Assembly (NCBI RefSeq): GCF_011050365.1
Contig: NZ_DRFV01000001.1
Coordinates: forward strand, 1-64,000
Length of the DNA: 64,000 nt
From: Pseudohongiella sp.
Lineage (GTDB): Bacteria; Pseudomonadota; Gammaproteobacteria; Pseudomonadales; Pseudohongiellaceae
Direction: 5' to 3'
The position numbers and the translations under genes were made by a program. Below are positions 2,780-64,000 of the stretch, piece by piece; positions within the stretch are counted from its first letter, which is position 1; each line of letters starts with the position of its first letter. Under the pieces are notes generated by a model, which did not search any database, had not been told where the DNA came from, and was given only the letters and a program-made list of their open reading frames with translations.

Positions 2780-4795
2780 TCAGCGCGTGCCCGGCATAAT
2801 CTCGAACACCGGATCGAACTCCATCAGCACCGATGCCAGTTGCTGCAGCACCGCCGCATTGCCGGTGACCTGCCCGCGACCACTGGTAAGCTGGCTGGCC
2901 AGTGTCGCCTGTCCCATGATGACCTGATCCAGATCACTGCGGTTCATGGTGATACTGGCATCGGCATCACTGGCGCGGTAGCCGGCGATATTGGTTAGCG
3001 TGCCGCCACGCATTTCAATGACAAACTGCTCACCGTTGTCAGGTGTGCTGAAATTGATCTTGAATGCCATGCCGTCGGCGAGCTGACTGTCCACCCGGGT
3101 CGCGATCGCGTCCCACCACTGCGTTGTGGTCATGGCGCGCGCCAGATCCGGGCTGGTGCCGCGCGCCGGGCCGGCCGGCGCCACACCGTTGCGCAGTTCC
3201 TGTGCCGCGGTCAGAAAGGCATTACGCATGCTGGCGCTTTCGTACTGATAACCCAGCTGCTCAAAGGTAGCTGCCAACAGGTCCTTGCCGGCCCGGTTGT
3301 CAGGTTCGGCGTAGACCAGTTTGTTGAGAATCTCCATGGCATGGCGGTACTGGCCCTGGTCAAACAGTGTCTGCGCACGCGGCAAAATCGCATTGGCGCC
3401 GCCCATCATCTCGACATACAGCGGCGCGGCATCTTCCGGTGACAACGGTGCCAGCGTAGCCGGGTTGCCATCCCAGTAGCCCAGGTAACGATTGATGACG
3501 GCGCGCGAGTTGTGGAATTCGGAGCCGTGATACTGGCGCACACTCCAGCTTTGCTGCAGTGATTGTGGCACCTGGTACTCGTTGTGCATCTGGCTGATGG
3601 TGACGCCGCGGTTGGCCAGGTTCAGCACCTGGTTGTTCAGGTTGGCGTAGGCATCACGCTGATCACGCATGACTTCCTGAATGCGGTCGTTACCCCAGCG
3701 CGGCCAGTTGTGCGAGGAGATCATCACCTCGGCGTCCTGGCCGAAGCGATACAGGGCCTCATTGATCTGCCGTGACCAGGACAGGGCATCGCGCACCAGA
3801 GCTCCGCGCAGGGTGTAGATATTATGGATGGTGGCCGTGATATTTTCCGCCGCCCAGAACACGTTGTGATCCGGAAACCAGGCATTCATTTCTGCCGGTG
3901 CCTCGGTGCCCGGTGTATTCTGGAATACCACCCGTACGCCGTCGATGGTGTGTTCCTCGAAGTCCCTGCGGATGACCACAGTCGGCGCGATGAGACCACT
4001 GCTGCCGCGTGCCAGCGCCTTGCCAATGGCCGAGTCCACCTGGCCGAACGGTCCGGCCGCAAGCGGGTTGCCGTACTGATACGATGCCCTGCGGGTCATG
4101 GCGTTACCCGCGTAGACATTTTCCGAAATCGCCTCTTCCATAAAACCGGCGGGCGCATAAATATCGACCCCTCTGGTTTGCACATCGTCATCGCTGATGA
4201 CGCCGCGCACGCCGCCAAAGTGGTCTATATGCGAATGCGAATACACCACGGCCGACACCGGCCGCTCACCCAATTGTTCGTTGGCAAAGGCCAGCGCGGC
4301 AGCCGCCGTTTCCCGGGTCAGCAGCACGTCGAACAGAATCCAGCCCTGTTCACCTTTGATCAGTGTCATATTGGCCAGATCGTAGCCGCGTATCTGATAG
4401 GCGAAATCCGGTACCACCTCGTACAGGCCATAGTTCATGTTCAGCGTGGCCTGGCGTTGCAGCGACGGATGGATACTGTCGTAATCCTGACCGTCCAGTA
4501 AAAAGTCGTATCGACCTATATCCCAGACCACGTTGCCGGCTGCGCCCAGAATCTGTCGGTAGTCAGGTGCGGCGACAAAACCGCGTTGTGACTCATCGAA
4601 ATCGCGCTGGTCGGCAAAGGGTAATGATGCCCTCAGTATGGCCTGCCGTTCTGCTGTGACGGCGCTGGCGGGCTGGCTGGAAGACTGGGCCTGGGCCTGG
4701 GCCTGGGCCTGAGATTGAGGCTGCGCATGGCTGGCCGTGCTGATGGCAAGGAGCAGGGCAAGGGCGGTGAGATGACAATTACCGATGGTTCGCAT
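2780..4795 (-). CDS. Secreted alkylsulfatase, SdsA1 type
   Basis: A 671-residue metallo-beta-lactamase-fold sulfatase that cleaves primary alkyl sulfates such as SDS to alcohol and sulfate. A signal peptide (ending SHAQ) is followed by a Q/A-rich linker at about 25-40. The zinc motif HSHIDH is at 187-192. Then come the central alkylsulfatase dimerisation region (YLGYWDGNPATL, MGGANAIL) and a C-terminal SCP2-like domain (FKINFSTPDNGEQF). Length and domain order match Pseudomonas aeruginosa SdsA1 throughout. It should act in the periplasm or outside the cell and would let the cell use sulfate-ester surfactants. It is divergently transcribed from the epoxide hydrolase at 4920. Oddity: an in-frame hexanucleotide repeat encodes the linker. 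Confidence 0.93.
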   Translation of the reverse strand: MRTIGNCHLTALALLLAISTASHAQPQSQAQAQAQAQSSSQPASAVTAERQAILRASLPFADQRDFDESQRGFVAAPDYRQILGAAGNVVWDIGRYDFLLDGQDYDSIHPSLQRQATLNMNYGLYEVVPDFAYQIRGYDLANMTLIKGEQGWILFDVLLTRETAAAALAFANEQLGERPVSAVVYSHSHIDHFGGVRGVISDDDVQTRGVDIYAPAGFMEEAISENVYAGNAMTRRASYQYGNPLAAGPFGQVDSAIGKALARGSSGLIAPTVVIRRDFEEHTIDGVRVVFQNTPGTEAPAEMNAWFPDHNVFWAAENITATIHNIYTLRGALVRDALSWSRQINEALYRFGQDAEVMISSHNWPRWGNDRIQEVMRDQRDAYANLNNQVLNLANRGVTISQMHNEYQVPQSLQQSWSVRQYHGSEFHNSRAVINRYLGYWDGNPATLAPLSPEDAAPLYVEMMGGANAILPRAQTLFDQGQYRHAMEILNKLVYAEPDNRAGKDLLAATFEQLGYQYESASMRNAFLTAAQELRNGVAPAGPARGTSPDLARAMTTTQWWDAIATRVDSQLADGMAFKINFSTPDNGEQFVIEMRGGTLTNIAGYRASDADASITMNRSDLDQVIMGQATLASQLTSGRGQVTGNAAVLQQLASVLMEFDPVFEIMPGTR
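4685..4714 (-). repeat. Hexanucleotide repeat coding for a Q/A linker in the alkylsulfatase
   Basis: CTGGGC occurs four times at 4685-4708, followed by CTGAGA. Read on the minus strand it encodes alternating Gln-Ala just after the signal peptide. Because the unit is six bases, gain or loss of units changes linker length but not frame. Confidence 0.85.
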
Positions 4796-49509: not shown

Positions 49510-51702
49510 CTAGTCCAGCACTCTCAGAAACTCACCCACCACCCGGTATCGGCTGGTATCGTCTTCAGTCAGCACAAGCGTCTCAAATGCTGGATCGGAA
49601 GTGCGTGGTTTCAGCAGGATTCTCTGATGTGCCCAGCCATCGCCATCTTCCGATTTGATGCTCTCGTATTCCTTGACGGTGTAGTGCGAACCACTGTCGT
49701 CATCAATGATGTCTGAATGCTCAACCAGGACGATCTTTCCGTTTCGGCTGCCGCCCTGATCGGTCCGGAACAGACACACAGCGCCATTCGGGATTATCCG
49801 GTTCATGGACTCGCCCTGGACTTTGCACGCGAACAGGCTTTTGTCAGCGCGCTCGCCGTCAGGAAGAACAATCCAGTCGTCTATTTCGGCCTGTTGCTGT
49901 TCGCTGAAGCTGCCAGCAGCCGGGAGCAGGCAATACAGTGGCACGGCATTGACGTAAGGCTGGACTTTAACTGGCGGCAATTCGACAACATTGTCTGGCG
50001 GCGCGATGTCGCGCGGTATGTGCTTGGCCAGGTACTCGCGGAAATCGGGATCGCAGGCGTAAACAAAGGTACCTCTGATACCGCGCAGCATGATGGTTTT
50101 GTAGATGTTGAGAATATAACGCTTCAGTTGCTCCGGATCTGTTATTGACTGTTTACCGTTGCGGTCGAAATACAACTCAGGTCGGATGATGATTTCGCCC
50201 TTGGTCTTGTCGTAGCCGATCTCGCGGCCGAATATGATGCCGGCATAGTTCAGGTCATATCCCTGTGTGGTGTGGATACAGCCCACCTCAGTTGCCGATC
50301 CTTCCGCGTTGATCCAGTCCGAGCTGGTGCTGTTCCATCGCAGCTTTATGTTCTCGATTTCAATGTCGAATTTGTCGCGCTCTTTGTTGGAGACCCAGGG
50401 CCACGAGTAACCGGCAATCATTCGGGATAAACCAACATCACTCTCCTTTTCCTGAATCTTTTTCTGGAACTCCCGGAAACTGTCAAACAGTTTGAACTCG
50501 TAGGACCTGGACGTATGTTTTGCCGACTCAGCCAGGCGGGCATTGAGCAGCTCATCCACAAACTTCACATAGGGGTTGCCGCCCAGCACTCGGAACTGGG
50601 AAACCAGTTCCTGTACTTCGGTGTCTGGTGATGCTTTCAGGGCCGTGAAAACGTCTGCGGCGGCATCCGATGGTTTTATGGTCTGATCGGTGTCGTAAAA
50701 GAATACGGCCCGGCTGGATTGTTTGCGGACCCAGTCAACTTCGCTGCACCGCTTTGGATCGAAGCCCAGAGCGATGGATGTCTTGTCGAACGCACCGTAA
50801 TAGGCACCGAGGTTTATCCGTTGGCGTAAGCGATGGGCTTCATCCACCAGCACGATGTCGTAGTCTTGCTTAGCGAGTTCTGCCGGGCCAATAACCATGT
50901 TGGATTTCAGGCCCGCAATGTTCGAGAAAGCCTTTTGTAAGGTTTTCCGGAAAGACGACATGGGCACAACCAGCGCCATGCGAGGCTTTCGGCCGTACTT
51001 TTCGCGCAACCGAAACAGCAGTTCCTTGATTTCGGCCTCTTCGCTGGAGAATTCCTGAAAGTTGAAGTCATCGTTGTCTGACTGCAAAAGTTTGAACAGG
51101 AATATCGCCAGCACGGATTTACCCGTCCCCGCACCACCCTGAACTACCAGCGTGCGTGTGGTGTCGCTCACCAATGAGTGCATGATGCCCAGCAGCCCCT
51201 GGCGCTGGTCGGCCGACAGCGCCTTGTAGGGTGAGTATTTAAACAGGTCAGAGTTGTCCAGATGATCCAGTGAGTGCTGGGTCACGCCCTTTGCCCGAAG
51301 CTGATCCCAGAGCTGCTGGAAGATGTCGGCGTAGAGGATGTCCTTCTGGTAGTAGTTGTGATCCGCCAGTCCCAGGTTGCCGTTCAGCAGTTTGAACCGG
51401 CCATCGGCGGACATGTATTTGATCAGATTGGACTCAATGTCCAGCGTGGCGGATTTGTTGAACTTCAGGCTGGTGATCAGGTGAACCACTGACAGGTGGC
51501 GTTTGGCGTCATGTTTCAGATGGGTTGTCATGCGGGCGACCGCATCAGCGGTTTCACCAACGTAAGCCAAGCGCTTGTTGTCATCGCTCAGCACATAGAC
51601 CAGCGGCCAGTAGTTCTGTGCAAATGAGTTGGCGCGAATATCGCTCAGCTGCTTGTCGCTGAAGGCATAGCGGCTGACTTCAATGACGGGAGGCCTGCTC
51701 AT
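49510..51702 (-). CDS. GIY-YIG nuclease - DUF2075 helicase - LexA-like autoprotease fusion
   Basis: A 730-residue protein with three modules. Residues 33-100 form a GIY-YIG nuclease (YVL 36-38, YVG 47-49, likely catalytic E91). Residues 180-560 form a DUF2075 P-loop helicase (Walker A GGAGTGKS 189-196, Walker B DEAHRL). Residues 580-730 match the S24 peptidase domain of LexA/UmuD: a putative self-cleavage bond A596-G597 in PLYCLLPAAGSF, catalytic S632 in GESMN, and K677 in YTVKEY. Spacings are close to UmuD (cleavage site to Ser about 36). The start ATG overlaps the stop of the MazG-like gene by 4 bp. A DNA-damage or phage-triggered nuclease-helicase is inferred. Confidence 0.88.
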   Translation of the reverse strand: MSRPPVIEVSRYAFSDKQLSDIRANSFAQNYWPLVYVLSDDNKRLAYVGETADAVARMTTHLKHDAKRHLSVVHLITSLKFNKSATLDIESNLIKYMSADGRFKLLNGNLGLADHNYYQKDILYADIFQQLWDQLRAKGVTQHSLDHLDNSDLFKYSPYKALSADQRQGLLGIMHSLVSDTTRTLVVQGGAGTGKSVLAIFLFKLLQSDNDDFNFQEFSSEEAEIKELLFRLREKYGRKPRMALVVPMSSFRKTLQKAFSNIAGLKSNMVIGPAELAKQDYDIVLVDEAHRLRQRINLGAYYGAFDKTSIALGFDPKRCSEVDWVRKQSSRAVFFYDTDQTIKPSDAAADVFTALKASPDTEVQELVSQFRVLGGNPYVKFVDELLNARLAESAKHTSRSYEFKLFDSFREFQKKIQEKESDVGLSRMIAGYSWPWVSNKERDKFDIEIENIKLRWNSTSSDWINAEGSATEVGCIHTTQGYDLNYAGIIFGREIGYDKTKGEIIIRPELYFDRNGKQSITDPEQLKRYILNIYKTIMLRGIRGTFVYACDPDFREYLAKHIPRDIAPPDNVVELPPVKVQPYVNAVPLYCLLPAAGSFSEQQQAEIDDWIVLPDGERADKSLFACKVQGESMNRIIPNGAVCLFRTDQGGSRNGKIVLVEHSDIIDDDSGSHYTVKEYESIKSEDGDGWAHQRILLKPRTSDPAFETLVLTEDDTSRYRVVGEFLRVLD

Positions 51703-52019
51703 AACTCATTGTATTTCCTGGCAGTCCCCTTGGCCTTGCTGACCGGGTACTTTTCCTCGTTCTGCCTGATTTTGGCCAGCACGATGTCTTTGACATCCAG
51801 ATCACAGGCATCGGCCAGCAGAAAGGCGAATGCAAAAACGTCAGCCAGCTCTTCCTTGATCTTCTGCTTATCGGCGTCTTCAGGTTGCTTCCACAGGAAG
51901 GCTTCAAGCAGTTCACCGGCTTCGATGCTCAGCGCCAACGACAGATCCTTGGGATTGTGGAACTGCTGCCAGTCACGTTCGTCGCGGAACTTCTTCAGGG
52001 CGTCTATGATTTCATTCAT
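51699..52019 (-). CDS. MazG-like nucleotide pyrophosphohydrolase
   Basis: A 106-residue all-alpha NTP pyrophosphatase. SIEAGELLEAFLW and KEELADVFAFAFLLAD contain the paired ExxE and E-x(3)-D motifs that bind Mg2+ in MazG-type enzymes. It would cleave (d)NTPs to (d)NMP and pyrophosphate. First gene of a two-gene unit, overlapping the GIY-YIG/helicase gene by ATGA, so their products are expected in a fixed ratio. Confidence 0.9.
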   Translation of the reverse strand: MNEIIDALKKFRDERDWQQFHNPKDLSLALSIEAGELLEAFLWKQPEDADKQKIKEELADVFAFAFLLADACDLDVKDIVLAKIRQNEEKYPVSKAKGTARKYNEL

Positions 52020-52502
52020 ATTTTTGGATTTTTGATGAACGGATGGGTGGTCGGTATGATTTCACGTATAAAAAACCGTGACAACTATACATGTCGTAGA
52101 TTACGCGACTCTGGAGTGGGTCGACAGGTTTAACAATTGTCCGCTTCTAGAGCCTATTGGCAATATCCCCTTGGCGGAGATGGAGGCAATATGCTGTCGC
52201 CAGCGGGAAGAGTCGGTTATGGTAGCCTGACCCAAACTAACGAGTCTCCGGAATACCCGGGGCGATTCAGATCACTATCGGATTTCGGCGACTGTGGTGG
52301 TTAGTGGAGTGCTGGATCGATGGTTGAAGGGGGTTGGAGGGGGTGCGGGGACAATCACAATGCCTCGATAAGTGGCATCGTTACATTCCTGTTGAACCAT
52401 AAAGAGATTCGGGTCGAGGTTTTGAGAATAGATGAGTAACATTAGTCCAGAACAGTCACTCAAAATCAGCTCGGCTTTGCTGAATTGTTATTAGGCTTAC
52501 AG
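52020..52502. other. Divergent gap inside the island, no intact gene
   Basis: 483 bases between the MazG-like gene and the Nudix gene, which point away from each other. It must contain both promoters. Base composition is mixed, with a G-rich stretch around 52320-52350. No open frame has a recognisable product; no tRNA or integrase gene is seen. Confidence 0.5.
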
Positions 52503-52916
52503 ATGATAAATGTCACCGCCGCCATCATCCTCCACAATAACCGCGTACTCGCCACTCGGCGTGCACCCCAAAAACACATGGGTGGCTATTGGGAGTTCCC
52601 TGGCGGCAAAATAGAACTCGGCGAGACACCTGAGCAATCACTTGCTCGCGAGCTCCAAGAGGAACTCGGCATAACAGTTCGGGTAGGCGAGCACTTTTTC
52701 TCAAACAAACACAACTATGGCGATAAGCAAATCATGTTGATGTCGTACCTTTGTACTTGGGGCACAGGCGAGTTGATCTTAAACGACCACGACGCCATTC
52801 AGTGGTGCTCTGCCCAAGAGCTCGCTAGCCTGAGGTGGGCCCCCGCAGATATCCCGATAGTACATGCCCTGCAAAACGCCATGGCTAACATTGACACGAG
52901 CCCCCAAACACCGTGA
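52503..52916 (+). CDS. Nudix hydrolase, MutT-like
   Basis: A 137-residue enzyme with a complete Nudix box: G35, E41, R49, E50, E53, E54, G56 (GGKIELGETPEQSLARELQE). It most resembles MutT-type (8-oxo-dGTP) hydrolases, but its location suggests a specialised nucleotide substrate. The ATG at 52503 has no clear ribosome site; a TTG at 52485 is an alternative. GTGA overlap with the next gene makes it the first half of a coupled pair. It differs from the chromosomal background in its more A/T-tolerant codon use. Confidence 0.93.
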   Translation: MINVTAAIILHNNRVLATRRAPQKHMGGYWEFPGGKIELGETPEQSLARELQEELGITVRVGEHFFSNKHNYGDKQIMLMSYLCTWGTGELILNDHDAIQWCSAQELASLRWAPADIPIVHALQNAMANIDTSPQTP

Positions 52917-55900
52917 GCACGCCTAAACAGCCAATCGGCCTTTACGAACAGGTGATAAGCGTGGCACTCCAAGCCGAGTTGGAGGCGCTTTCAAACGAGG
53001 CCATCACCGATCAAGAAAAGCTGAATACGGCAGAGGCGCCCGACCGGCTCGCCATGTACGTGGGCAAATTGGTTGAACGGGTGGTGGCAGGCCTGAACGA
53101 GAAAGACCGACTCAATGTCAGTCGTAAACTAGTTAACAGCTTGATTGAAGTCGCGCAAGAATATGCGCCCAGGGCGGACCTTGAGATCGATAAACTGCCT
53201 GAAGATCTCGCTGTCCTAAGGGGTATCTTTGGCATCGGTCAAGATGGTCGTGCAACGAAGTTAGCGAGGCCCCTTACGCCATTGCTCGATACAACACTGA
53301 TTACCAATGATCGTAACGAACCCAAAATTGCCGCACAGATTAAAGGCGAAATTCACTCGGCCGATCGTATCGATGTCGTGATGGCCTTCGTGCGTTACAG
53401 CGGGATCAGAAAGTTTATAGAGGAATTCAAGCGCTTTTTAGCCAAGCCCGAGCAACCGCGCTTGAGGGTGTTGACTACCACCTACACCAATAGCACAGAG
53501 CTAAAAGCCTTGCAGGCGCTTGCCGATCTGGGCGCTGAAATTCGGGTCTCTTACGATGTGGGCATGACCCGCCTGCACGCCAAAGCTTGGTACTTTTACC
53601 GACGATCGGGGGCTTCTACCGCCTACATCGGATCTTCTAACCTAACGCACTCGGCGCAAGACACGGGCAAGGAATGGAACGTGCGCGCCAGTGCGCTGCG
53701 CAACGCTGATGTCACGCGCAAAGTGGCTTCTATGTTTGAGGCCTACTGGGAAAGTGGCGATTTTGAACCCTTTGATGCCCAAACCTTTCAACGAAATACC
53801 GCCATAGAGGAGCAAGAACAAAGCCACAAAATGCGCGTTTTCTTAGAGGTGACACTCAAACCTTTTCAAGAGCGCCTGCTCGAAGAAATTGAGGTCTCGC
53901 GCGGCAATGACCGGCATTGGAACCTGCTTGTTTCAGCCACCGGCACAGGCAAAACCGTGATGGCGGGGGTGGATTACAGCAGGCTGAAAACGCGTATGTC
54001 CCGCGCCCGGCTTCTCTTTGTGGCTCACCGCAAAGAGATCCTAGAGCAAAGCCGCGACACCTTTCGGCAAATTCTGCAGGATTGGCAGTTTGGGGAGCTC
54101 TGGGTAGATGGCGAACGCCCCACCCACTTTGAACACGTGTTTGCCTCTATTCAAACGCTTTCGAATGCAGATCTTAGCCGTATTCCTACCGATCACTACG
54201 ATGTGGTGATTATTGATGAGTTTCACCATGCGGCGGCACCCACCTACCGGCATCTACTTGCCCATTTGCAGCCAAAGCAACTGCTGGCACTTACCGCAAC
54301 GCCGGAACGGGCCGATGGCGAATCACTGTTACATTTGTTTAATGACGAAATTACCGCCGAGCTGCGCTTGTGGGATGCAATAGACCAACACAGCCTAGTG
54401 CCTTTTGAATATTACGGTGTGCACGATGGCACACACCTTAGCGATATCCCGTGGACGCGCGGGCGAGGCTACGACACTGAGGCGCTTTTCAACGTCTACA
54501 CTGCCGATGACTTGTGGGTTAAGCGGGTGATCGGAGAGCTGGCCAATAGAGTTGAATGCATCGATACGGTAGTTGGGCTCGGCTTTTGTGTGAGCATCGC
54601 ACATGCCGATTTTATGGCGCTGAAGTTTAATCAAGCGGGCATTGCGGCGGCGAGTGTGTCGGGTAAAACGGGTTCGAATGAGCGTGAAAGCACGCTGCGT
54701 AAATTGAACGACGGCAGCTTAAAGTTTGTGTTCTCGGTAGACGTATTTAACGAAGGGGTCGACATCCCAAAGGTAAACACCTTATTGCTGTTGCGCCCCA
54801 CAGAAAGTGCCACCATCTTCATTCAGCAGTTGGGGCGAGGTTTACGTCGAGCGCCGCACAAAGAGGTTTGCACGATCTTGGATTTTGTAGGCCAGCACAA
54901 TAAAGAGTTCCGGTTCGATAAGCGTTTAGGCGCGCTTTTAGGCGGCACACGCAAAGATCTAGAGCGACAGGTACAGCAGGGCTTTCCCTATTTACCAGCC
55001 GGATGCTATATGGAGCTCGACCCCATAGCGCAGCTAACCATACTCACTAGCCTAAAGAACGCCATACCCTCATCGCGCAATGCTCTAGCTGCTGAGCTTC
55101 GCACATTAAAAGAGCGAGGTGCCAATACCTCGTTAAATGCCTTTTTGGAACATACCGGCTTGGCGTTAGAGGATATCTATAAAGGCGGTGGCGATAATTC
55201 GTGGAGCGCCCTGTGTGAATCGGCGGGCATTGAAGTACAACCCCAAGGCCCGAATGAAACAATGTTGCGCAAGGCGTTAGGCCGCCTGCTACACATAGAC
55301 GACAGTGAACGTTTAAGCCAATACGCGCAGTGGGCCGCGCAAGCCGATGCGCCAAAACTTCGCGATTTGGCTGCCCGAAAAACGCGATTGTTGCGCATGT
55401 TGGTAGCTTCTTTATGTAATCAGCTCAGTGATCAACATGTATCTTTAGAGCATGCGGTAGATTTAGTATGGAAACACCCGCAGGTGCTCGACGAGCTGCA
55501 AGGGCTCGTGGTCGCTTTGCAAACCCGAGTCAGCCACAAGCATAGCTCTTACGAGCCTGTTGGCGACAACCCATTGCAAATTCACGCACGCTACACGCGC
55601 ATCGAGATATTGGCTGCCTATGGAGAAGGTGATAATGCGCTAACCCCAACCTGGCGCGAGGGGGTGAAGTGGTCGCAGCAAAACAAGACCGATGTAATGG
55701 CTTTTACCTTAAGTAAAACTCCTGGGCGTTTTAGCCCCACCACCATGTACCGCGATTACGCCATAAACCAAAACCTCATTCATTGGGAAAGCCAATCCCA
55801 AACCAGCGAGGCAAGCGCCACTGGTCAGCGCTACATTCACCACCAAGAACAGGGCAGCGATATTGCCCTATTTGCACGGGAAACCTCAGATGATAGAGCG

Positions 55901-56026
55901 TTCTGGTGTTTGGGTAAGGCTCAATATGTTGAGCACGAGGGAGAAAGACCCATGGCGATCAAGTGGCGTTTGGCGAAGAGTCTGCCCGGCGATTTATATG
56001 GGGCGTTTGTAGCTGCAGTGGCTTGA
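52913..56026 (+). CDS. Phospholipase D nuclease - DEAD/DEAH helicase - DUF3427 protein
   Basis: A 1037-residue protein starting at GTG 52913. Residues 110-290 form a PLD-like domain with one HxK motif (H222-x-K224 in LHAKAWYF, then YIGSSNLT). From about 310 a superfamily 2 helicase follows, with Walker A GTGKT (K347), DEFHH at 435-439, ALTATP, and motif VI QQLGRGLRR at 638-646. The C-terminal quarter (about 890-1037) is DUF3427. One HxK motif suggests a dimeric PLD nuclease. It overlaps the Nudix gene by 4 bp. A role in recognising and cutting foreign DNA is inferred from its neighbours and domain type. Confidence 0.93.
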   Translation: MSTPKQPIGLYEQVISVALQAELEALSNEAITDQEKLNTAEAPDRLAMYVGKLVERVVAGLNEKDRLNVSRKLVNSLIEVAQEYAPRADLEIDKLPEDLAVLRGIFGIGQDGRATKLARPLTPLLDTTLITNDRNEPKIAAQIKGEIHSADRIDVVMAFVRYSGIRKFIEEFKRFLAKPEQPRLRVLTTTYTNSTELKALQALADLGAEIRVSYDVGMTRLHAKAWYFYRRSGASTAYIGSSNLTHSAQDTGKEWNVRASALRNADVTRKVASMFEAYWESGDFEPFDAQTFQRNTAIEEQEQSHKMRVFLEVTLKPFQERLLEEIEVSRGNDRHWNLLVSATGTGKTVMAGVDYSRLKTRMSRARLLFVAHRKEILEQSRDTFRQILQDWQFGELWVDGERPTHFEHVFASIQTLSNADLSRIPTDHYDVVIIDEFHHAAAPTYRHLLAHLQPKQLLALTATPERADGESLLHLFNDEITAELRLWDAIDQHSLVPFEYYGVHDGTHLSDIPWTRGRGYDTEALFNVYTADDLWVKRVIGELANRVECIDTVVGLGFCVSIAHADFMALKFNQAGIAAASVSGKTGSNERESTLRKLNDGSLKFVFSVDVFNEGVDIPKVNTLLLLRPTESATIFIQQLGRGLRRAPHKEVCTILDFVGQHNKEFRFDKRLGALLGGTRKDLERQVQQGFPYLPAGCYMELDPIAQLTILTSLKNAIPSSRNALAAELRTLKERGANTSLNAFLEHTGLALEDIYKGGGDNSWSALCESAGIEVQPQGPNETMLRKALGRLLHIDDSERLSQYAQWAAQADAPKLRDLAARKTRLLRMLVASLCNQLSDQHVSLEHAVDLVWKHPQVLDELQGLVVALQTRVSHKHSSYEPVGDNPLQIHARYTRIEILAAYGEGDNALTPTWREGVKWSQQNKTDVMAFTLSKTPGRFSPTTMYRDYAINQNLIHWESQSQTSEASATGQRYIHHQEQGSDIALFARETSDDRAFWCLGKAQYVEHEGERPMAIKWRLAKSLPGDLYGAFVAAVA

Positions 56027-56203
56027 GTCCGCATCACTCTCATCGCTCACGATTGGAATGTCTCCGATTGTTGTGCAGCATTAAACCGACGCATTGACGA
56101 GCACAACAATGGTTTTGGCGCTTCCCGTATCGCAGTTCTTGAAACGTTCGGCTTAAGCAGTGGAATCGTCAAGTTCATGAAGAGCTGGATATCAGAACGG
56201 TAA
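56027..56203 (+). pseudogene. Open, protein-like segment directly after the helicase stop
   Basis: The 58 codons that follow the helicase TGA in the same frame stay open to TAA 56201-56203 and read as a plausible protein (HDWNVSDCCAALNRRIDE, FGASRIAVLETFGLSSGI). No ATG, GTG or TTG can start it in frame near its beginning. It may be the tail of a degraded gene, or a read-through extension. I do not recognise its family. Confidence 0.4.
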
Positions 56204-56249
56204 AGGTAGTTAAATTGTATCTGTATTGTCGTCGTCTCAACTTGACGCC

Positions 56250-56678
56250 ATGCCAGATACTAACCAATATCCACCCATGACAACAAATAGCTACCATAAG
56301 CCCTGCCCCTTTTGCGATTCGACATTTCGAGAATCACTTGCCAACAATGCCAGCTGTTTCGCAACCCTCGACAACTATCCTATCTCCCCAGGCCACACGC
56401 TGATTATTCCCCTCCGTCATGTCGGTTCCTACTTCGATCTTTCTCGCATCGAGCGTGATGATCTCTGGGACCTGGTCGAGCAGGCCAAAACAAAACTGGA
56501 CAGCCAATTTTCACCCGATAGCTACAATATCGGTATGAATGACGGACCGGCGGCAGGTCAGACTATTGGACACTGCCACATCCACCTGATTCCACGTTAT
56601 GTCGGGGACGTGTCTGACCCTCGAGGTGGCTTACGCTGGATTATGCCAGACAAGGCTGACTATTGGTCCGATCGATGA
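56250..56678 (+). CDS. HIT-family nucleotide-binding protein
   Basis: A 142-residue protein with the histidine-triad motif H108-x-H110-x-H112 (GHCHIHLIPRY), and a preceding NDGPAAGQTIG loop as in HIT hydrolases. A CPFC motif near the N-terminus may bind zinc. HIT enzymes split nucleoside phosphoramidates, dinucleotides or adenylylated intermediates. The start is uncertain: ATG 56250 or 56277 (no ribosome site is visible for either). It overlaps the HNH gene by ATGA. Confidence 0.92.
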   Translation: MPDTNQYPPMTTNSYHKPCPFCDSTFRESLANNASCFATLDNYPISPGHTLIIPLRHVGSYFDLSRIERDDLWDLVEQAKTKLDSQFSPDSYNIGMNDGPAAGQTIGHCHIHLIPRYVGDVSDPRGGLRWIMPDKADYWSDR

Positions 56679-57742
56679 GTGAGCCTTCCGCTAGGGCACA
56701 GCTTGCGTTTCTGGAGAAAATTCAACGCTTGTTTGATGAAGGCGAATTTTCTGCCACTTACAAGTTTGCCCTGATGCTGACATTGACCGAGCTAGCGATT
56801 GAGCGTGGCACGGATGATGACGCAGAGCTGGTATTGCCGCTCGATGCAGTGGCCGAGCGTTTTGCGTTGTTGTACTGGCGACAGGCGAGCAGCTTCGGTC
56901 CGGCATCTGAGAATTCGGAAAACGGGGTTCTACTGCAGAACCTGGGTAAACAGGCCGCTGTGATCAATCGGATTCGCAACATTTACAATGAAGTAGAGGG
57001 CAACCCGGCTAGGGCGCCTGGGCACCCTCAGTGGAAACGCACGATTTCCGATATCCGGGCTGTTGTTCACAATATGCCGCTTCGCCATCTGCAGGTCATA
57101 GGCGGGCAAACCGACCGATTCATGTATGACTATCCTTGTACCAACAAAATGCTGATCTTGAAGCAGGGCGTCAGCCGCAATCTGCGCCGCTTTAGTCCAT
57201 TGATTCAGCAGTTGGCCAAGGCAGGCTGGGTTCAGCACATTCGCAGCAATCGCCGAAATGCGCCACTGCTGGGCAAAAAAGACGATCTGGAGTCATTCAT
57301 GTTCGGCACGCCACGGGCGCTTCTGGCCCGTATTTCACCCATTCTGTCCCAGATGCAGGACAGGCGCTGCTTCTACTGCCAGGGGAAACTGCACAGCCAG
57401 ACCGAGGTTGACCATTTCATACCGTGGTCGCGCTACCCACGAGATACGGCGCACAATTTTGTGGTGGCGCACCGTGGCTGCAACAATGACAAGCGGGATA
57501 TGCTGGCTGCTAAGACGCATCTTGAGCGGTGGCTGGCGCGCAATGACCAATTAGGGCAGGAGCTGGGTGGGCAGATGCAGGAGCAGGGCTTTGTCTCTAA
57601 TATTGGCAGCACAACTGAAGTGGCAAAATGGGCTTACGGAGAGGCATACAGAATGCAGGGATTTGCTTGGATTGAAACGCGTCGGCAAACTGAGATGGTG
57701 GATCGAGAGTACGTTGAGTTGTTTGGGACGGATAGAATTTAG
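56675..57742 (+). CDS. HNH endonuclease of unknown specificity
   Basis: A 355-residue protein. The C-terminal HNH domain is clear: CFYC at 232-235, VDHFIPW with H247, HNFV, then RGCNNDKRD with C269 (zinc and catalytic elements). The N-terminal 200 residues are helical and lack a known DNA-recognition motif. No methyltransferase gene is in the window, so it is not an obvious restriction-modification enzyme. Start at ATG 56675 overlaps the HIT stop. It probably cuts DNA under control of the HIT partner or the helicase module just upstream. Confidence 0.9.
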   Translation: MSEPSARAQLAFLEKIQRLFDEGEFSATYKFALMLTLTELAIERGTDDDAELVLPLDAVAERFALLYWRQASSFGPASENSENGVLLQNLGKQAAVINRIRNIYNEVEGNPARAPGHPQWKRTISDIRAVVHNMPLRHLQVIGGQTDRFMYDYPCTNKMLILKQGVSRNLRRFSPLIQQLAKAGWVQHIRSNRRNAPLLGKKDDLESFMFGTPRALLARISPILSQMQDRRCFYCQGKLHSQTEVDHFIPWSRYPRDTAHNFVVAHRGCNNDKRDMLAAKTHLERWLARNDQLGQELGGQMQEQGFVSNIGSTTEVAKWAYGEAYRMQGFAWIETRRQTEMVDREYVELFGTDRI

Positions 57743-58217: not shown

Positions 58218-61200
58218 CTAGTACGTTGTTTCAGATGCCTTTTTTGCAAACCAGAAACGCGCGCTCTCATTATTCCGCTTCAGGCCCACATACAGTTCCC
58301 TCACCCCTGAAGATTCATCGTAACTTCTGCTGGATTTGTACTTTGAAAGACCGAGCTTGAATATCACGCTTCTTTTGCAGGACTTTAGAACCTCGCCGAG
58401 CCATCCAATCTCTACCCAAAGGATAGCGCCCTCATCCTGATACCTGCTGCCGCGTGCATCGGCGTCGGGTCGCCACTCGCCCCAGACGTCGCTCTTCAAT
58501 ACCAGCTTCCCGTTGTTATCGCGCCAATGCCGCTCATCCCAGTCTGGTGTCAGCCCAAGCAGCTTGTTGAGCCCACGCCCTAGCTTTGGACGAGCTATCG
58601 CACCCCGTGTGGCCCACTCGTCATGTTCATCAATGCCAATGGGATACTTCTCCGGCACCCATATCAAAGGATTAAACGGCCTTTTATCGGCGTAGCGATC
58701 AACGCGCCCGTCGGACTCAAATCTAGGTAGCCAAAGATCTTGATCGGGTGCTTTCGCGAAGTTCCCACATTGCCCAACCGCGCCGCGCTCCATGATGAGT
58801 GCGGAGTCTAGGCTAACGTGTACGCCGTCTGGCGATGTCCAGTATCCGTGAAGCGGCAGGTAATGATCTTCCGGACCCTCGGGGAATCCGACCTTCGCAA
58901 ACAGTGCCTCCTTGTCTAGAAGCGTCTCCTGGTTTCCTTTGCGCTCACCGAGTAGGTACTCGTGAGCCACTGCGGGAACCCGATCTTTGTGATCTGATAA
59001 CCATGAGCCATCCTCGAATGAAACATCCTCGCCTTCTAAGAATTCTTGCCATGGATTTAGGCCCGTCGAATCATAGCTGTGCCGTGCCACAGGCAAAGTC
59101 TTCAGGAGCGTGGTTGCCGCGAAAAGGCGAGCATGCCGTAGTATGTGCTCGGCATAGGTTTCGAATCGTTTATCGCCTCGGTAACGGACACCACCAGGAA
59201 AGTCGGAAATGCCACTAGCACCTGGCCAACGTTTTATTACTTCACCGGCAATGAGGTCCCAGGCTTCATTATTCGATATCCAGAAAAGCTGTGCGAGGTT
59301 CGAAACCTTGTGGTTGTCGAAATCGTGGTCGAAACCGAATTCCAACTGGCGATCCTTGTTATTTGGCCTGCCATCACGTTTAACGATGCCATGCGGGGGC
59401 GTTTGAACCTCCGCCCACAATTTCGCAAGTCCAGCGCTCATGGATTTACCGCCCTCGATATACTTTAGACATCGGGCAAGGTGAAGTTTGTTGAGCACAT
59501 GCAAATCGGGTCGATTTGCTAGCGCTTCAATTCGTGCCTTCAGGCACTTGAGCTTCTCGCCATGATGCAGGGCAGCGCGTGCCAATCCCATCAACAGCCA
59601 TTGCTGCGCATTTAAAAAGGAAAAACGATGCTCGTCGGAAGCGAGTGATTGGTTCTCATCTGTATCAAACCGATCAAGCAGGTGCCCGACGTCTTCGGTC
59701 AATCCTACATCAAGCATTCCCTTCAGACTTCTTGCGGCACTCCATCTGACAAAGGCATCACTATCACCGAGCAAATGCCAGATGATATCGGCGATAACAC
59801 AGCCCTCGTCGCTCTTGCCATCGAAGGCGGCGCAATACACGCCTTCACCGATCTCATCACCAAGCTTTGCAGCGGAACTGGATAGCAAGTCCTCAAATGC
59901 CTTCAACGCATTCGAAGGATCAGTTTGACACGACAGGCTCGTCGCTAATTGGAGCCACTCGTCACCCCCAAGTTCAAGGCGCTCCTTCGCTACTGTTTCC
60001 AAAACAGTTTGCAACACAAATTTTGGATCACCGCATAGCTCGGATAAACGATGGATTTGCCTGGAGATGCCCGAATAGCGCTGTTCGAACAGCTCGGAGC
60101 CCCTGAGCGCAAAAAACCTCTTAATCAGGTTAGCTACGCTGTTCGCTATATGCGCCGAACTATTGCGCCAAGCTTTTACGCATTCGATGATCAGGTCGAG
60201 TGCGCGATCAAACTCGAGCTCGGTAGACTCACAAAGTGCCTCAAGGAAGTTGACTCGCTCGTTATACCGGCAAGCTTTCCGTAGCTCCTCTAACAGACGA
60301 CCCGTGTTGTCGAACGGCAGCCCGGCGCTGGCCTGAATTTCTTGAATTGCCTCATCCAGCGAGGATGCAGATATGGGAACGCATTTGGCTACAATAGCCG
60401 CGAGGGCTTCGTAGCGAGCCTGTTCATCTTGCTTGTTGCTATTTGCCTGGATGCTGTATACAGCACTAGACACATTATAATTGTTTTTAGCGTTTTCGAT
60501 TTCGCGCCGAAGTCGCGCTGCTTCGTGCTGCGTTTGGAGATGACCGAGCAACCCCGCTTCGTTGACCTCTTCAAATTCAACCACACAGCCCATTAGGCTC
60601 TCCCATAGTCCTTCCCATCCGCCAAAACTATGTTCTTGATCCAGCTTCCCTGTCACAAGAGAGAAGATTGCTGCCCTATCTTTGGAATCGGCAGTCGAAA
60701 GCAGATCGTGCAAACCCTTGCCAACCTGCCATTCATGCCAGCCATGATCTTCGCAGATTGTGAGAAGCACCGCCGCGCGGCGCACATCAAGATGACCTGC
60801 TTTTGCGAGGTAACAGGCAAGCTGCGGAAGGCCGTAGGAATAATCCACAACATCCTGATCGTCCCATCGTATCAGCTTGTATATTGCCGGAAAGCCAACG
60901 GAGGCAGCAGCGGCACGCCCGAATAGTGTCCATCCGAATTTTGATGGCTCATGCTTGAAGATTGTCTCACACAGGTTCATAAGCCGGTGCGAGAGCTCCG
61001 GCTTCACAAACCCTCCTGGCTGCTCTGCGGCATAGTGCAACACCGAGTAAATCAGGTCCGGGTCATTTCCACCCATCTTATCAAGTTGAGCCAAACCTCG
61101 GGCATAGTACGCTTGCGCCTCACCAATACTCATCGTGATCAGCGATTCAGACAAATCCCGGTAGGCTTCGCCGCGTTGTTCGATGTAGTCATCCTTGAGT

Positions 61201-64000
61201 ATGTCGTCGGAAATCTTGGATGCGTACATCCCTGCGACACCGGCCAGTTTGGGACGCCTTGCGATAAGATCAAAGACACTTAGCTTGTCACCCAGCGAAA
61301 ACCGGTTAGCTTCTATGATTTCTATAAGCTCTTCCGCTTGATTTGTTTCGACGGATTCACAGTGGCGGAGCAAGATTTTGGCAAGCCCAATGCCAACATG
61401 TCGCGCAACATTGCCTATTCCGGTTTCGGCCCTCCAATGGACATTGAGCCTCAATGCTGATTTCCAGACATCTAAAAAGGCGGCCAGAACATCACTTGAA
61501 AGTGCAGCTGTGGACAGAAGGGGAGTCTCAAGAGGTTTGACCAACTGAAGGACGCAGGATGCGCCCTTCACAATGTCTTCCTGCTCATGCCTGGAAAACT
61601 GCTTGTGTTTCTTGGGCTTCTGCCCCTTTGGCACCGTGTTCAGGTTTCTCGTCACGATGAGGCTATCAAGGAATGCGCCGAGGTCAGCTTCGGAGGCTAT
61701 TGATTTCGTCTTTCGCCCTGTCTTCACGTTCTCCGGCATAAGATGTTGGAAAGACAAATTTTCGCCGGATGACCAGGCCGTGATGCAAGCCGATAGAACA
61801 GGTATCCACACCCTGTCCATGCCATGACGCTCGCCATAGCCGTAGCTCGATGGCCTGCGATGGCGATATAATCCGAGTAGTCTCTTCGCTGACTGCCTTG
61901 AATTCACGAGGAGAGAGCCCATCGCGGCCTCTGCGATAGTACTCTGCAGTTCCATCTCGTAGTCGGGGGAGTTTTTTTCCGGCATCCTCTTTTTATATCG
62001 CTGCGAGAGCGAGCTTGTTGCTCGCGAAACAGTCCTGAGTTGGTTTCTTGAGAGGCCATACCCCTTGGACAGCAGGCCAATTTGCAGGGTAAGAGACAGG
62101 CACCTTTTCGACGCTGCGAACTTGGTTAAGGTCTGCAGAGCTTCACTTCCGTTCGCGGCTTCGTGATGTGCGCAAAGAGTAATCAGCTCTTCCACGACTG
62201 AGAGCGCAAACTTGAAACGCCACAGCTGGATATTGCGATTAAATGACGAAAACGTATTCTTCAAAACGCCCAAGAACATTACGGCAGCGATATCGGCTGC
62301 CTCTGGCCCGGAGCGCTCGATCCGTTTGGACTTGTCATCCGTGTGGAGATACCAATTGATCCAGCCAATCGCCCTGTTTTGATGAATGCGCGCTTCGTCC
62401 AGTTCATCAGAAAAACAATAGGCGACGGTGAGCCGCGCATCACGTGCCCCACGCCAACCGGATCGATCATTGAATAAGCGGCGGGAAGCATCCGTGCCTC
62501 CAAGGATCGTCGCCAGCGCCGGAGATCGACGAATGAACTGGTCGCCCCTCGCATTAGCCGACGCCACCTGCGAGAGTTTCATCGACAGACTTAGAGTCCG
62601 GTTTAGATCTTGTTCGCGTGTTGCAAGAGAGAATGCTGCATAGAGCCGTGCGAGCTTCAGCTTGCGACGTTCATAGTCGGATTCGATTTCAGTTGGAAAA
62701 TCATCTGAACCAGCAAGCTGATAAGCCCTGTTGCTGTCTCCGGTGACTACAAGTAAATGGGGCAATGCTTCGGCGGCGTAGATAGAGTCTTTCTGATGCG
62801 CTTGGAGCCTCTGCGCAATGGATTGCTGCGAAGAAACCTCGCTTGCGTAGCGATCCTTGATGTAGGTCTCGGTGGGTTCGTCGCGAAAAATCGCACCATG
62901 CTTGACCAGTTCAAGCATTGGCGCAAGATCGGATGCGGCACTATTGACCTGCGAGTCTGACCAGCCTAACGTCTTGGCTAGTTCGGGCAACGGAATGGGC
63001 GGCGGAAGAAGAGATAGAGCGGCAAAAAATTCAAGAATTTCAGTCTCACTCCAACCGACCGTATGTAGGTACCGGAATATTCTTTCGCATTTTCCAGCGA
63101 TCAGGTCTTCAACAGAAATTTCGGTCTGCGGCGCATTCCCGGACACATTCGTGTCCCAGCTTTCCACGAGGTACTCGAGGACACGGGCATTGCCCTGCGA
63201 ACGAGCAAGTGCCGTTGAGAATTCGACATCCGTGATATCATTGCGCCGTGTCTCAAGAAACTTCCGCGTTTCTTCCTCAGTGAACGGTTCAAGCTTAATG
63301 CGCTTTGTATAGCTGTTTCCTATTACGCTATCGATCCTATGGGGGCGCGCAGTGAGCAAGAGCCTTACACCGTCGATAGGCTCCGCACTGAGCGATGCAA
63401 GCAAGAGCCTTGGAAAGGCATCTTCATTGCGCGCATCGGCTTCCAATTGCGCATTGTCTGCCGCGTCCAAAACAATCAGTATGCCTTGCATGACGGACTG
63501 ATTTTGGACGGTCCCGCTAGCCTGCTTGAGACGCTTGCGGGCAACGCTGATCAAGCCATATTGATCGCTGTCAGTCGGAAGAAGTGGGTCGCAGAGTCCG
63601 CGTGTCGCCAGTTCATTGATGATCTGCAGTAGCCCAATTTTCGGCATGTGACGTGCCTGGGCCTCGGAGCGATATGCACCGCCACCGAAGCAATCGAAGA
63701 CGACGACCTCGAATGAATCGGTCAGATGTTTGGCTAGGCTTTGGATGAACACGGTCTTCCCGACGCCGCCGTCGGCATAAAGAAAAACAGGTAGATTGCT
63801 CGCTTCGATTTCGTTTCGGACTTCGTGCAGGGCCGAACGCTCAACGACTTCACCAACATCTACGAAACGCGTATCCGCTGGAAATAACTGATCCTCATCA
63901 CACTCTAGTGCATCCAGAACATCTTCACGCCTGATAGAATTATTGCTCTGACCCTCAATTTGCGCCTTCTCGCGGACAAGCTCCACCAACGCGTATAGTC
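58218..64000 (-). CDS. Giant STAND-type NTPase, N-terminus beyond window
   Basis: At least 1,926 codons are visible and the frame is still open at the right edge; a TTG at 63989 is not a convincing start, so N-terminal effector sequence is probably missing. Numbering from 63989, a P-loop NTPase of the NACHT/STAND type occupies about 65-330, with Walker A ADGGVGKT at 72-79, Walker B ILIVLDAADN at 170-179, and a sensor TARPHR at 213-218. The remaining 1,500 residues are largely helical, repeat-like, followed by a distinct C-terminal domain. This design matches antiviral STAND (Avs-like) proteins, in which the long C-terminal part senses a phage protein and an N-terminal effector acts. Confidence 0.8.
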   Translation of the reverse strand, partial: LYALVELVREKAQIEGQSNNSIRREDVLDALECDEDQLFPADTRFVDVGEVVERSALHEVRNEIEASNLPVFLYADGGVGKTVFIQSLAKHLTDSFEVVVFDCFGGGAYRSEAQARHMPKIGLLQIINELATRGLCDPLLPTDSDQYGLISVARKRLKQASGTVQNQSVMQGILIVLDAADNAQLEADARNEDAFPRLLLASLSAEPIDGVRLLLTARPHRIDSVIGNSYTKRIKLEPFTEEETRKFLETRRNDITDVEFSTALARSQGNARVLEYLVESWDTNVSGNAPQTEISVEDLIAGKCERIFRYLHTVGWSETEILEFFAALSLLPPPIPLPELAKTLGWSDSQVNSAASDLAPMLELVKHGAIFRDEPTETYIKDRYASEVSSQQSIAQRLQAHQKDSIYAAEALPHLLVVTGDSNRAYQLAGSDDFPTEIESDYERRKLKLARLYAAFSLATREQDLNRTLSLSMKLSQVASANARGDQFIRRSPALATILGGTDASRRLFNDRSGWRGARDARLTVAYCFSDELDEARIHQNRAIGWINWYLHTDDKSKRIERSGPEAADIAAVMFLGVLKNTFSSFNRNIQLWRFKFALSVVEELITLCAHHEAANGSEALQTLTKFAASKRCLSLTLQIGLLSKGYGLSRNQLRTVSRATSSLSQRYKKRMPEKNSPDYEMELQSTIAEAAMGSLLVNSRQSAKRLLGLYRHRRPSSYGYGERHGMDRVWIPVLSACITAWSSGENLSFQHLMPENVKTGRKTKSIASEADLGAFLDSLIVTRNLNTVPKGQKPKKHKQFSRHEQEDIVKGASCVLQLVKPLETPLLSTAALSSDVLAAFLDVWKSALRLNVHWRAETGIGNVARHVGIGLAKILLRHCESVETNQAEELIEIIEANRFSLGDKLSVFDLIARRPKLAGVAGMYASKISDDILKDDYIEQRGEAYRDLSESLITMSIGEAQAYYARGLAQLDKMGGNDPDLIYSVLHYAAEQPGGFVKPELSHRLMNLCETIFKHEPSKFGWTLFGRAAAASVGFPAIYKLIRWDDQDVVDYSYGLPQLACYLAKAGHLDVRRAAVLLTICEDHGWHEWQVGKGLHDLLSTADSKDRAAIFSLVTGKLDQEHSFGGWEGLWESLMGCVVEFEEVNEAGLLGHLQTQHEAARLRREIENAKNNYNVSSAVYSIQANSNKQDEQARYEALAAIVAKCVPISASSLDEAIQEIQASAGLPFDNTGRLLEELRKACRYNERVNFLEALCESTELEFDRALDLIIECVKAWRNSSAHIANSVANLIKRFFALRGSELFEQRYSGISRQIHRLSELCGDPKFVLQTVLETVAKERLELGGDEWLQLATSLSCQTDPSNALKAFEDLLSSSAAKLGDEIGEGVYCAAFDGKSDEGCVIADIIWHLLGDSDAFVRWSAARSLKGMLDVGLTEDVGHLLDRFDTDENQSLASDEHRFSFLNAQQWLLMGLARAALHHGEKLKCLKARIEALANRPDLHVLNKLHLARCLKYIEGGKSMSAGLAKLWAEVQTPPHGIVKRDGRPNNKDRQLEFGFDHDFDNHKVSNLAQLFWISNNEAWDLIAGEVIKRWPGASGISDFPGGVRYRGDKRFETYAEHILRHARLFAATTLLKTLPVARHSYDSTGLNPWQEFLEGEDVSFEDGSWLSDHKDRVPAVAHEYLLGERKGNQETLLDKEALFAKVGFPEGPEDHYLPLHGYWTSPDGVHVSLDSALIMERGAVGQCGNFAKAPDQDLWLPRFESDGRVDRYADKRPFNPLIWVPEKYPIGIDEHDEWATRGAIARPKLGRGLNKLLGLTPDWDERHWRDNNGKLVLKSDVWGEWRPDADARGSRYQDEGAILWVEIGWLGEVLKSCKRSVIFKLGLSKYKSSRSYDESSGVRELYVGLKRNNESARFWFAKKASETTY

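Follow-up and report, generated by a model that had tools for sequence, protein, structure and literature searches.

What joins a small enzyme acting on nucleotides to a large DNA-processing enzyme, three times in succession, is the question raised by positions 49510-57742 of a 64,000-nucleotide stretch of Pseudohongiella sp. (contig NZ_DRFV01000001.1), the whole of which we call the window. A preliminary description of this DNA had placed six genes here as three pairs, each with a 4-bp overlap: a MazG-like pyrophosphatase with a GIY-YIG nuclease-helicase (pair 1), a Nudix hydrolase with a PLD nuclease-helicase (pair 2) and a HIT protein with an HNH nuclease (pair 3). Rereading the gene positions and overlaps from the sequence bore this layout out. 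All six genes are present, and the overlaps are ATGA at 51699-51702 on the minus strand (MazG stop and helicase start), GTGA at 52913-52916 (Nudix and PLD-helicase) and ATGA at 56675-56678 (HIT and HNH). Pair 1 is on the minus strand, divergent from pairs 2 and 3, which are on the plus strand. The pairing is above chance, since the MazG/helicase, HIT-HNH and Nudix-SauUSI-type orders recur in relatives. The locus is a defence island with three separable two-gene modules, two of which are related in kind through a LexA-like S24 tail that occurs on both types of nuclease-helicase. The preliminary description had overlooked this tail, which the pair-1 nuclease carries.

The first gene of pair 1 (51699..52019, minus strand) encodes a predicted MazG-like (DCTPP1-type) nucleotide pyrophosphatase of 106 amino acids (Pfam PF12643, 5.2e-19), for which the closest PDB entries include 4qgp (2.7e-19) and dCTP pyrophosphatase 1 (5.2e-19). 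Its ExxE and ExxD motifs (E33, E36, E57, D60), which bind metal in MazG/DCTPP1-like enzymes, are invariant in 78/78 sequences, namely the window and 77 loci, a fragment in L052 being left out; PADLOC gave no match to it. The second gene (49510..51702, minus strand; 730 amino acids) combines, according to Pfam, an AlphaFold2 model and Foldseek, a GIY-YIG nuclease, a Schlafen group 3 helicase and the S24 tail. Pfam matched the SLFN-g3 helicase at 2.8e-62 and Peptidase_S24 at 2.1e-7 (residues 594-678), with the GIY-YIG match (6.1e-4) under its cut-off at 20.5 bits vs 22.6. The tail comprises residues 583-730 (49513..49956, minus strand). When the window protein was aligned with 51 of its best 80 relatives, the GIY-YIG residues (Y36, Y47, G49, R57, H61, E90, N107), the Walker residues (K195, D287, E288) and the S24 dyad, Ser632 (49809-49807) and Lys677 (49674-49672), were invariant in 52/52 proteins. 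The conservation of Ser632 is biased, as GESMN was one of two search patterns; Lys677 and the putative cleavage site, Ala596-Gly597 (49917-49912), lie outside the patterns. At that site 50 of the aligned proteins have Ala and 2 have Cys at position 596, while position 597 holds Gly in 51 and Ser in 1; LexA and UmuD are cleaved at Ala-Gly and Cys-Gly. Pfam S24 matched all 23 pair-1 tails to which it was applied. The AlphaFold2 model has a pLDDT of 85.3, falling below 50 at residues 594-604, which hold the cleavage site, and with this model Foldseek returned SLFN11 (7zel) at rank 6 and LexA (3k2z) at rank 45 (1.6e-6). PDB sequence searches with the helicase and with the tail found no match. Judged by these comparisons, the tail has the S24 fold with dyad and Ala/Cys-Gly site intact.

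Relatives of pair 1 were collected with a pattern scan of 84,980 species genomes, based on an alignment of four pair-1 nucleases, and the best 80 of at least 557 relatives were analysed with flanks of up to 6 kb per side, often less. A MazG match adjoins the nuclease in 78/80; L068 has none, and in L103 the nuclease gene starts at the contig edge. In all 75 loci where it could be measured, MazG is upstream and on the same strand. With gene starts assigned by a heuristic, the two genes overlap by 4 bp in 51 loci, by 1 bp in 3 and otherwise in 4, and are separated by 0-30 bp in 17; the start is unclear in 3, and 2 count as having no MazG. Clustering of 831 selected frames from these loci placed MazG in 75 of them; apart from it and the nuclease no gene is present in most loci, the next cluster reaching 7. 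Pair 1 is therefore a self-standing two-gene unit. The partner also stays when the N-terminal nuclease differs: in L023, L024 and a split Halomonas copy (L025) another N-terminus with D...ExK-like motifs, which may be a PD-(D/E)XK nuclease and has no Pfam match, precedes the same helicase, S24 tail and MazG. By their record titles the best 80 belong to Gamma- and Betaproteobacteria, Bacteroidota and two candidate-phylum genomes. Among plasmids, 12 of the 22 records with a MazG match also match a Schlafen-type helicase, at most 4 kb apart in 9/12, Bacillota, Actinomycetota and an archaeon being among them. As side observations, a cluster recurring near pair 1 in 7/80 loci (L031, L035, L054, L059, L061, L093, L095) reads from the sequence as RhuM-like, and at L139:6473-8834 a MazG-like gene overlaps that of a TPR protein, similar TPR genes lying near pair 1 in L048, L075 and L107.

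Pair 2 begins with a Nudix hydrolase of the NudG/MutT type (52503..52916 from the ATG start, plus strand; Pfam NUDIX 9.8e-23), whose start is ambiguous between this internal ATG and an upstream TTG at 52485. It matches the PADLOC candidate model PDC-S07, which has no description, at 1.3e-51, and is 40.7% identical to E. coli NudG and 37.9% to MutT. The second gene (52913..56026, plus strand) encodes 1037 amino acids that Pfam and PADLOC assign as SauUSI-like: ResIII (4.2e-34), PLDc_2 (5.8e-7) and DUF3427 (1.6e-21), with Helicase_C also over the cut-off, and mREase_IV PDLC03659 at 2.5e-218 over residues 115-1031. The match to the SauUSI structure 7clg reaches 3.8e-79, and H222 and K224 are invariant in eight aligned sequences, window included. 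The protein thus holds the full SauUSI-type domain set, PLD nuclease, SF2 helicase and DUF3427, in one chain. By similarity and frame length, genes of this kind fall into a short, SauUSI-like type (~955-960 amino acids) and a long, window-like type. In an S. aureus record (L132) the Nudix gene runs to 3900 and SauUSI, whose gene is split there, starts at 3902; over the part of 7clg compared, the two SauUSI sequences are the same. Nudix lies directly upstream in five of the six short-type plasmid records examined (of seven with at least 80% query cover; L126, L132, L134, L135, L136). The same position was found in a second class sample of 395 genomes, from the class of the Cytophagaceae genome L091, in which 37 matches comprise the source genome, 16 close (short-type) loci and 20 distant, mostly long-type ones: Nudix is directly upstream in 16/16 close loci. 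Viral contigs yielded no PLD-helicase relative.

The S24 tail links the two kinds of nuclease. In 10 of the 16 close SauUSI-type loci an in-frame C-terminal region matches the terminal part of the pair-1 nuclease, with E-values of 7e-31 to 8e-42. Pfam called the tail of L172 as S24, barely above the cut-off, and the Ala-Gly, GESM and Thr-Val/Ile-Lys elements were found in all nine complete SauUSI-type tails, L186 being cut by the contig end. A tail-only profile (A6), built from 23 GIY-helicase tails and hence favouring those, was then applied to 247 genomes of L091's class. It matched once in each of 20 genomes, always at E ≤ 7.9e-53, and nowhere else at 1e-15. Of the 20 matches, 15 are Schlafen-helicases with MazG upstream (14 fetched loci and L091) and five are SauUSI-type proteins with Nudix upstream. 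The GIY-YIG head is present in 14 of these 15 helicases, the frame in L238 being without it. In two loci, L231 and L238, ~0.6 kb separates the end of the MazG match from the listed frame, the largest distance among the 20, and confirmation of the dyad leaves out L239 and L240, two MazG loci in which the tail motif expression did not match. Applied to 226 genomes from the window's own class, the profile found three tails, namely that of the window, one in a short frame close to the end of a contig (L245) and one at the C-terminus of HsdR (L244:218-3784, minus strand), in an operon whose HsdM, HsdS and ATPase genes were identified by reading the frames. A plasmid search with the tail gave one record. 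On these matches the S24 tail is shared between unrelated nuclease types.

Both types of nuclease-helicase can thus end in the same tail, and each type has a gene for a pyrophosphatase next to it, so that pairs 1 and 2 are related in kind: an ATP-dependent nuclease-helicase with a nucleotide pyrophosphatase. Do they, together with pair 3, form a single system? The preliminary description had suggested one composite defence system or three related ones. The recurrence of the pairs and the likeness of pairs 1 and 2 speak for related systems; a single composite fails on co-occurrence. Among 369 genomes of the window's class, own genome included, the PLD-helicase (E ≤ 1e-100) was found in 8, the HNH nuclease (1e-20) in 2 and the GIY-helicase (1e-40) in 4, and at these thresholds the own genome alone held more than one of the three nucleases; G258 has a weaker Schlafen-type helicase, below threshold, beside its PLD-helicase. 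Near the pair-1 nuclease of the best 80 relatives, a PLD-helicase occurs in 2 (L091, L103; a weak fragment in L101 was left out of the count), HIT in 1 (L042) and HNH in none. A single six-gene system was consequently rejected, within the limits that thresholds and flank lengths set to this comparison. Pairs 1 and 2 do meet elsewhere. A Lactiplantibacillus plasmid (L126) and L091 have co-linear Nudix, SauUSI-type, MazG and GIY-helicase genes, and MazG with a Schlafen-type helicase lies near Nudix-SauUSI in 2/36 loci (L176, L183). An annotated pyrophosphohydrolase follows Nudix and a split SauUSI-type gene in L135, and a PLD-helicase stands beside a Schlafen-type helicase in L103 and L114. This co-residence supports a tie between the two pairs without proving one, because defence genes cluster in general.

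We turn to how pairs 1 and 2 might work, and propose, tentatively and as somewhat short of probable, that the nuclease acts on foreign DNA, that its partner clears modified dCTPs and that the S24 tail is a switch read by RecA. The nuclease would attack foreign DNA; enzymes of the SauUSI type would target DNA carrying 5-methyl- or 5-hydroxymethylcytosine. MazG or Nudix, translated together with the nuclease, would hydrolyse 5-modified dCTP or related dNTPs, which would keep host DNA free of the marks that make it a nuclease target and also deny modified precursors to a phage. The tail would be a self-cleaving switch that responds to RecA-ssDNA and so couples the nuclease to DNA damage or to the replication of a phage. 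We infer the substrates, the self-cleavage, whether it turns the nuclease on or off, and the protection against phage. Pool sanitation is proposed because the closest PDB relatives of the window's Nudix and MazG include NudG/Orf135 and DCTPP1/RS21-C6, which are described as specific 5-methyl-dCTP hydrolases (PMC10742078, partial text), NudG being quoted as ~100-fold better than MutT on 5-methyl-dCTP (PMC3744803, partial text). SauUSI cuts m5C and hm5C DNA with ATP (PMC3874153, partial text) and has an SRA-type recognition domain (PMC7913695, partial text); DUF3427 is predicted to bind modified DNA (PMC7159879, partial text). The persistence of MazG beside a different N-terminal nuclease (L023, L024) is consistent with a partner role. 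One can also imagine, with some doubt, a general restriction-type class in which a LexA-like tail on ATP-dependent nucleases (Schlafen-helicases with GIY-YIG or PD-(D/E)XK-like heads, SauUSI-type enzymes, even HsdR) would wire restriction to RecA, the first two being co-made with a modified-dCTP pyrophosphatase that would keep host DNA free of the hunted marks.

Several results weigh against this proposal. Tail and pyrophosphatase are separable, because L126 has MazG beside a GIY-helicase without S24 and the HsdR operon of L244 has the tail with neither MazG nor Nudix by the queries used. In the window itself, Pfam found no S24 domain in the PLD-helicase. Modified-DNA targeting would be carried over to pair 1 by analogy with SauUSI, and no result points to modified DNA as what the pair-1 nuclease recognises. 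The correlation between the pairwise identities of MazG and those of the helicase is weak (r = 0.16, 50 sequences), so that co-divergence was dropped as support. The link of Nudix to long-type nucleases is looser: Nudix adjoins 10 of the 20 distant loci of the second class sample, and weakly one more, three of the nine without it having less than 1 kb of upstream sequence; it was found in 1/7 long-type loci besides the window in the window's class sample, in 0/7 long-type plasmid loci examined (of 10 records with 80% cover), and not in the short-type plasmid locus L137. Nor do the overall scores of the partner Nudix enzymes separate NudG from MutT. The window's Nudix falls under the NCBIfam NudG cut-off (112.5 bits vs 156) and over that for MutT (TIGR00586; 109.6 vs 97.9), the MutT-named 5x1x ranks over 2rrk in the PDB search, and the Nudix enzymes of L091 and L135 are nearer E. 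coli MutT than NudG by BLAST. In favour of the NudG type, at one position that serves base recognition, Asp in NudG and Asn in MutT, the partner Nudix has Asp in 8/8.

One rival reading concerns the direction of the switch. LexA and CI are inactivated by cleavage, and by that precedent the tail could be an OFF switch of the kind known as restriction alleviation: upon DNA damage the self-cut nuclease would be inactivated or degraded and the chromosome spared, the pyrophosphatase giving a second self-protection. UmuD, activated by cleavage, is the precedent against it. The tail occurs on three kinds of ATP-dependent nuclease, among them the HsdR whose type I operon also holds HsdM and HsdS, and because HsdR carries it we regard this as a serious rival, though we would not expect it to prevail. 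Alleviation of EcoKI restriction by ClpXP proteolysis is known (PMC11109961, partial text). Alternatively, the pyrophosphatase may be the effector, depleting dNTPs on infection (abortive infection) while the nuclease degrades DNA. The invariant catalytic residues of MazG in 78/78 sequences, the similar MazG beside an unrelated TPR protein in L139 and the listing of MazG among the predicted, unvalidated defence domains of DefensePredictor (PMC13092281, partial text) agree with such a role, which is nonetheless unlikely, as a sanitising function is described for the characterised NudG and DCTPP1 (PMC3744803, PMC10742078, partial texts) and the small enzyme has no evident sensor part.

A role for pair 1 in DNA repair or housekeeping, and not in defence, seems about equally unlikely. 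Its LexA-like tail, the lack of a PADLOC match for MazG and six Marinobacter loci in which the unit stands among neighbours common to those genomes would fit; its patchy distribution (the 4/369 genomes above, own included) and its position here beside SauUSI-type, Avs3-like and type I restriction genes would not. The preliminary description had further suggested that each small enzyme may control its nuclease through a nucleotide signal which it produces or removes. No result points there: although the PDB relatives of HIT include dinucleotide (Ap3A, Ap4A) enzymes, the closest MazG and Nudix relatives act on NTPs, the characterised ones being pool-sanitising enzymes, and no third gene cluster appears in more than 7/80 of the best pair-1 loci, the clusters being compared without a domain scan, so that we consider such signalling improbable. 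Least probable is a composite system of all six genes. A Hymenobacter plasmid has relatives of all gene types within ~25 kb, but its HNH is distant and its MazG stands beside a TPR gene and not next to the Schlafen-type helicases. The co-linear pairs 1 and 2 of L126 and L091 are likewise offset by pair 1 standing without the others in nearly all of the best 80 relatives (with short flanks), by the co-occurrence confined to the own genome and by the diverging strands in the window.

Among known systems, SauUSI shares with pair 2 the PLD nuclease, SF2 helicase and DUF3427, and has Nudix directly upstream in the S. aureus record, whereas the window protein has ~100 extra N-terminal residues; at 953 residues SauUSI is too short for the S24 tail that 10/16 close relatives in one class sample carry. 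The pair-1 tail resembles the S24 autoproteases LexA and UmuD in fold (Foldseek, LexA 3k2z), Ser/Lys dyad and Ala(Cys)-Gly site, but forms the end of a nuclease-helicase. The helicase core is that of Schlafen group 3 helicases and of Nhi and AbiO in PADLOC, to which the matches are partial (residues 255-420 and 162-422, best 40.8 bits), short of a full-length match; pair 1 adds the GIY-YIG domain, S24 tail and MazG partner. Of the characterised enzymes, DCTPP1/RS21-C6 and NudG/Orf135 are among those most closely related to MazG and Nudix, each of which overlaps a nuclease gene here, and PDC-S07 is the PADLOC candidate already matched by the latter. A literature search found no paper naming the MazG and GIY-YIG-Schlafen-helicase pair or the S24 tail; Burroughs 2015 may treat such genes, and the available part of PMC12839542 deals with Schlafen RNases, not with the pair-1 type of helicase. 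SauUSI has been studied as a barrier to gene transfer, yet a word search of the available text of a SauUSI structure paper (PMC7913695) turned up neither Nudix nor MutT nor pyrophosphatase. If the partners clear modified dCTP, the host would have a new kind of self-protection, by a clean nucleotide pool as against DNA methylation, and if the switch is real, the SOS signal would be linked directly to DNA attack through the LexA-like tail that three sorts of ATP-dependent nuclease carry.

Pair 3 fits the pairing theme but is without the tail. Its HIT protein (FHIT/Ap4A-phosphorylase-like; 56226..56678, plus strand; Pfam HIT 3.8e-21) has a listed TTG start with internal ATGs possible, and it matches PDB 9uch (1.5e-17). 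The HNH nuclease (56675..57742, plus strand; 355 amino acids; Pfam HNH_4 5.2e-7) has no Pfam match in its N-terminal ~220 residues, and its AlphaFold2 model was set aside at a pLDDT of 58.9. The HNH of pair 3 changes partners, because HIT, a methyltransferase or a pyrophosphohydrolase adjoins it in different loci. In the plasmid survey (11 of 17 records examined) and among genomes, HIT is directly upstream in L005, L006 (plasmids) and L020 (genome), and a class I methyltransferase is the next upstream gene in L003, L004, L007, L128 and L129. At L130:5058-6320 an HNH relative is followed downstream by an annotated nucleoside triphosphate pyrophosphohydrolase; none of the three partners adjoins HNH in L002, L127 and L131. 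A HIT protein (49% identical) stands behind a distant HNH (27% over 138 residues) in L136, and three HNH relatives occur in viral contigs. As separate observations, the SAM-methyltransferase and HNH genes lie beside BREX-1 genes in L007 and before type I-Fv cas genes in L129, and L130 may be counted as a further nuclease/pyrophosphatase pair.

An Avs3-like gene beyond HNH and type I restriction genes outside the window are the reason for calling the locus a defence island. The former (58218..64000, minus strand, running to G000:C1:64652) encodes 2144 amino acids, its best PADLOC match, Avs3a (1.7e-168), spanning residues 10-982 and the remainder lying outside the matched stretch. Along the window the GC content is 55-58% between 44 and 50 kb and drops to 51-54% between 50 and 64 kb. 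Past the window end, type I restriction-modification genes were observed at L018:10371-16790, equal to G000:C1:68371-74790.

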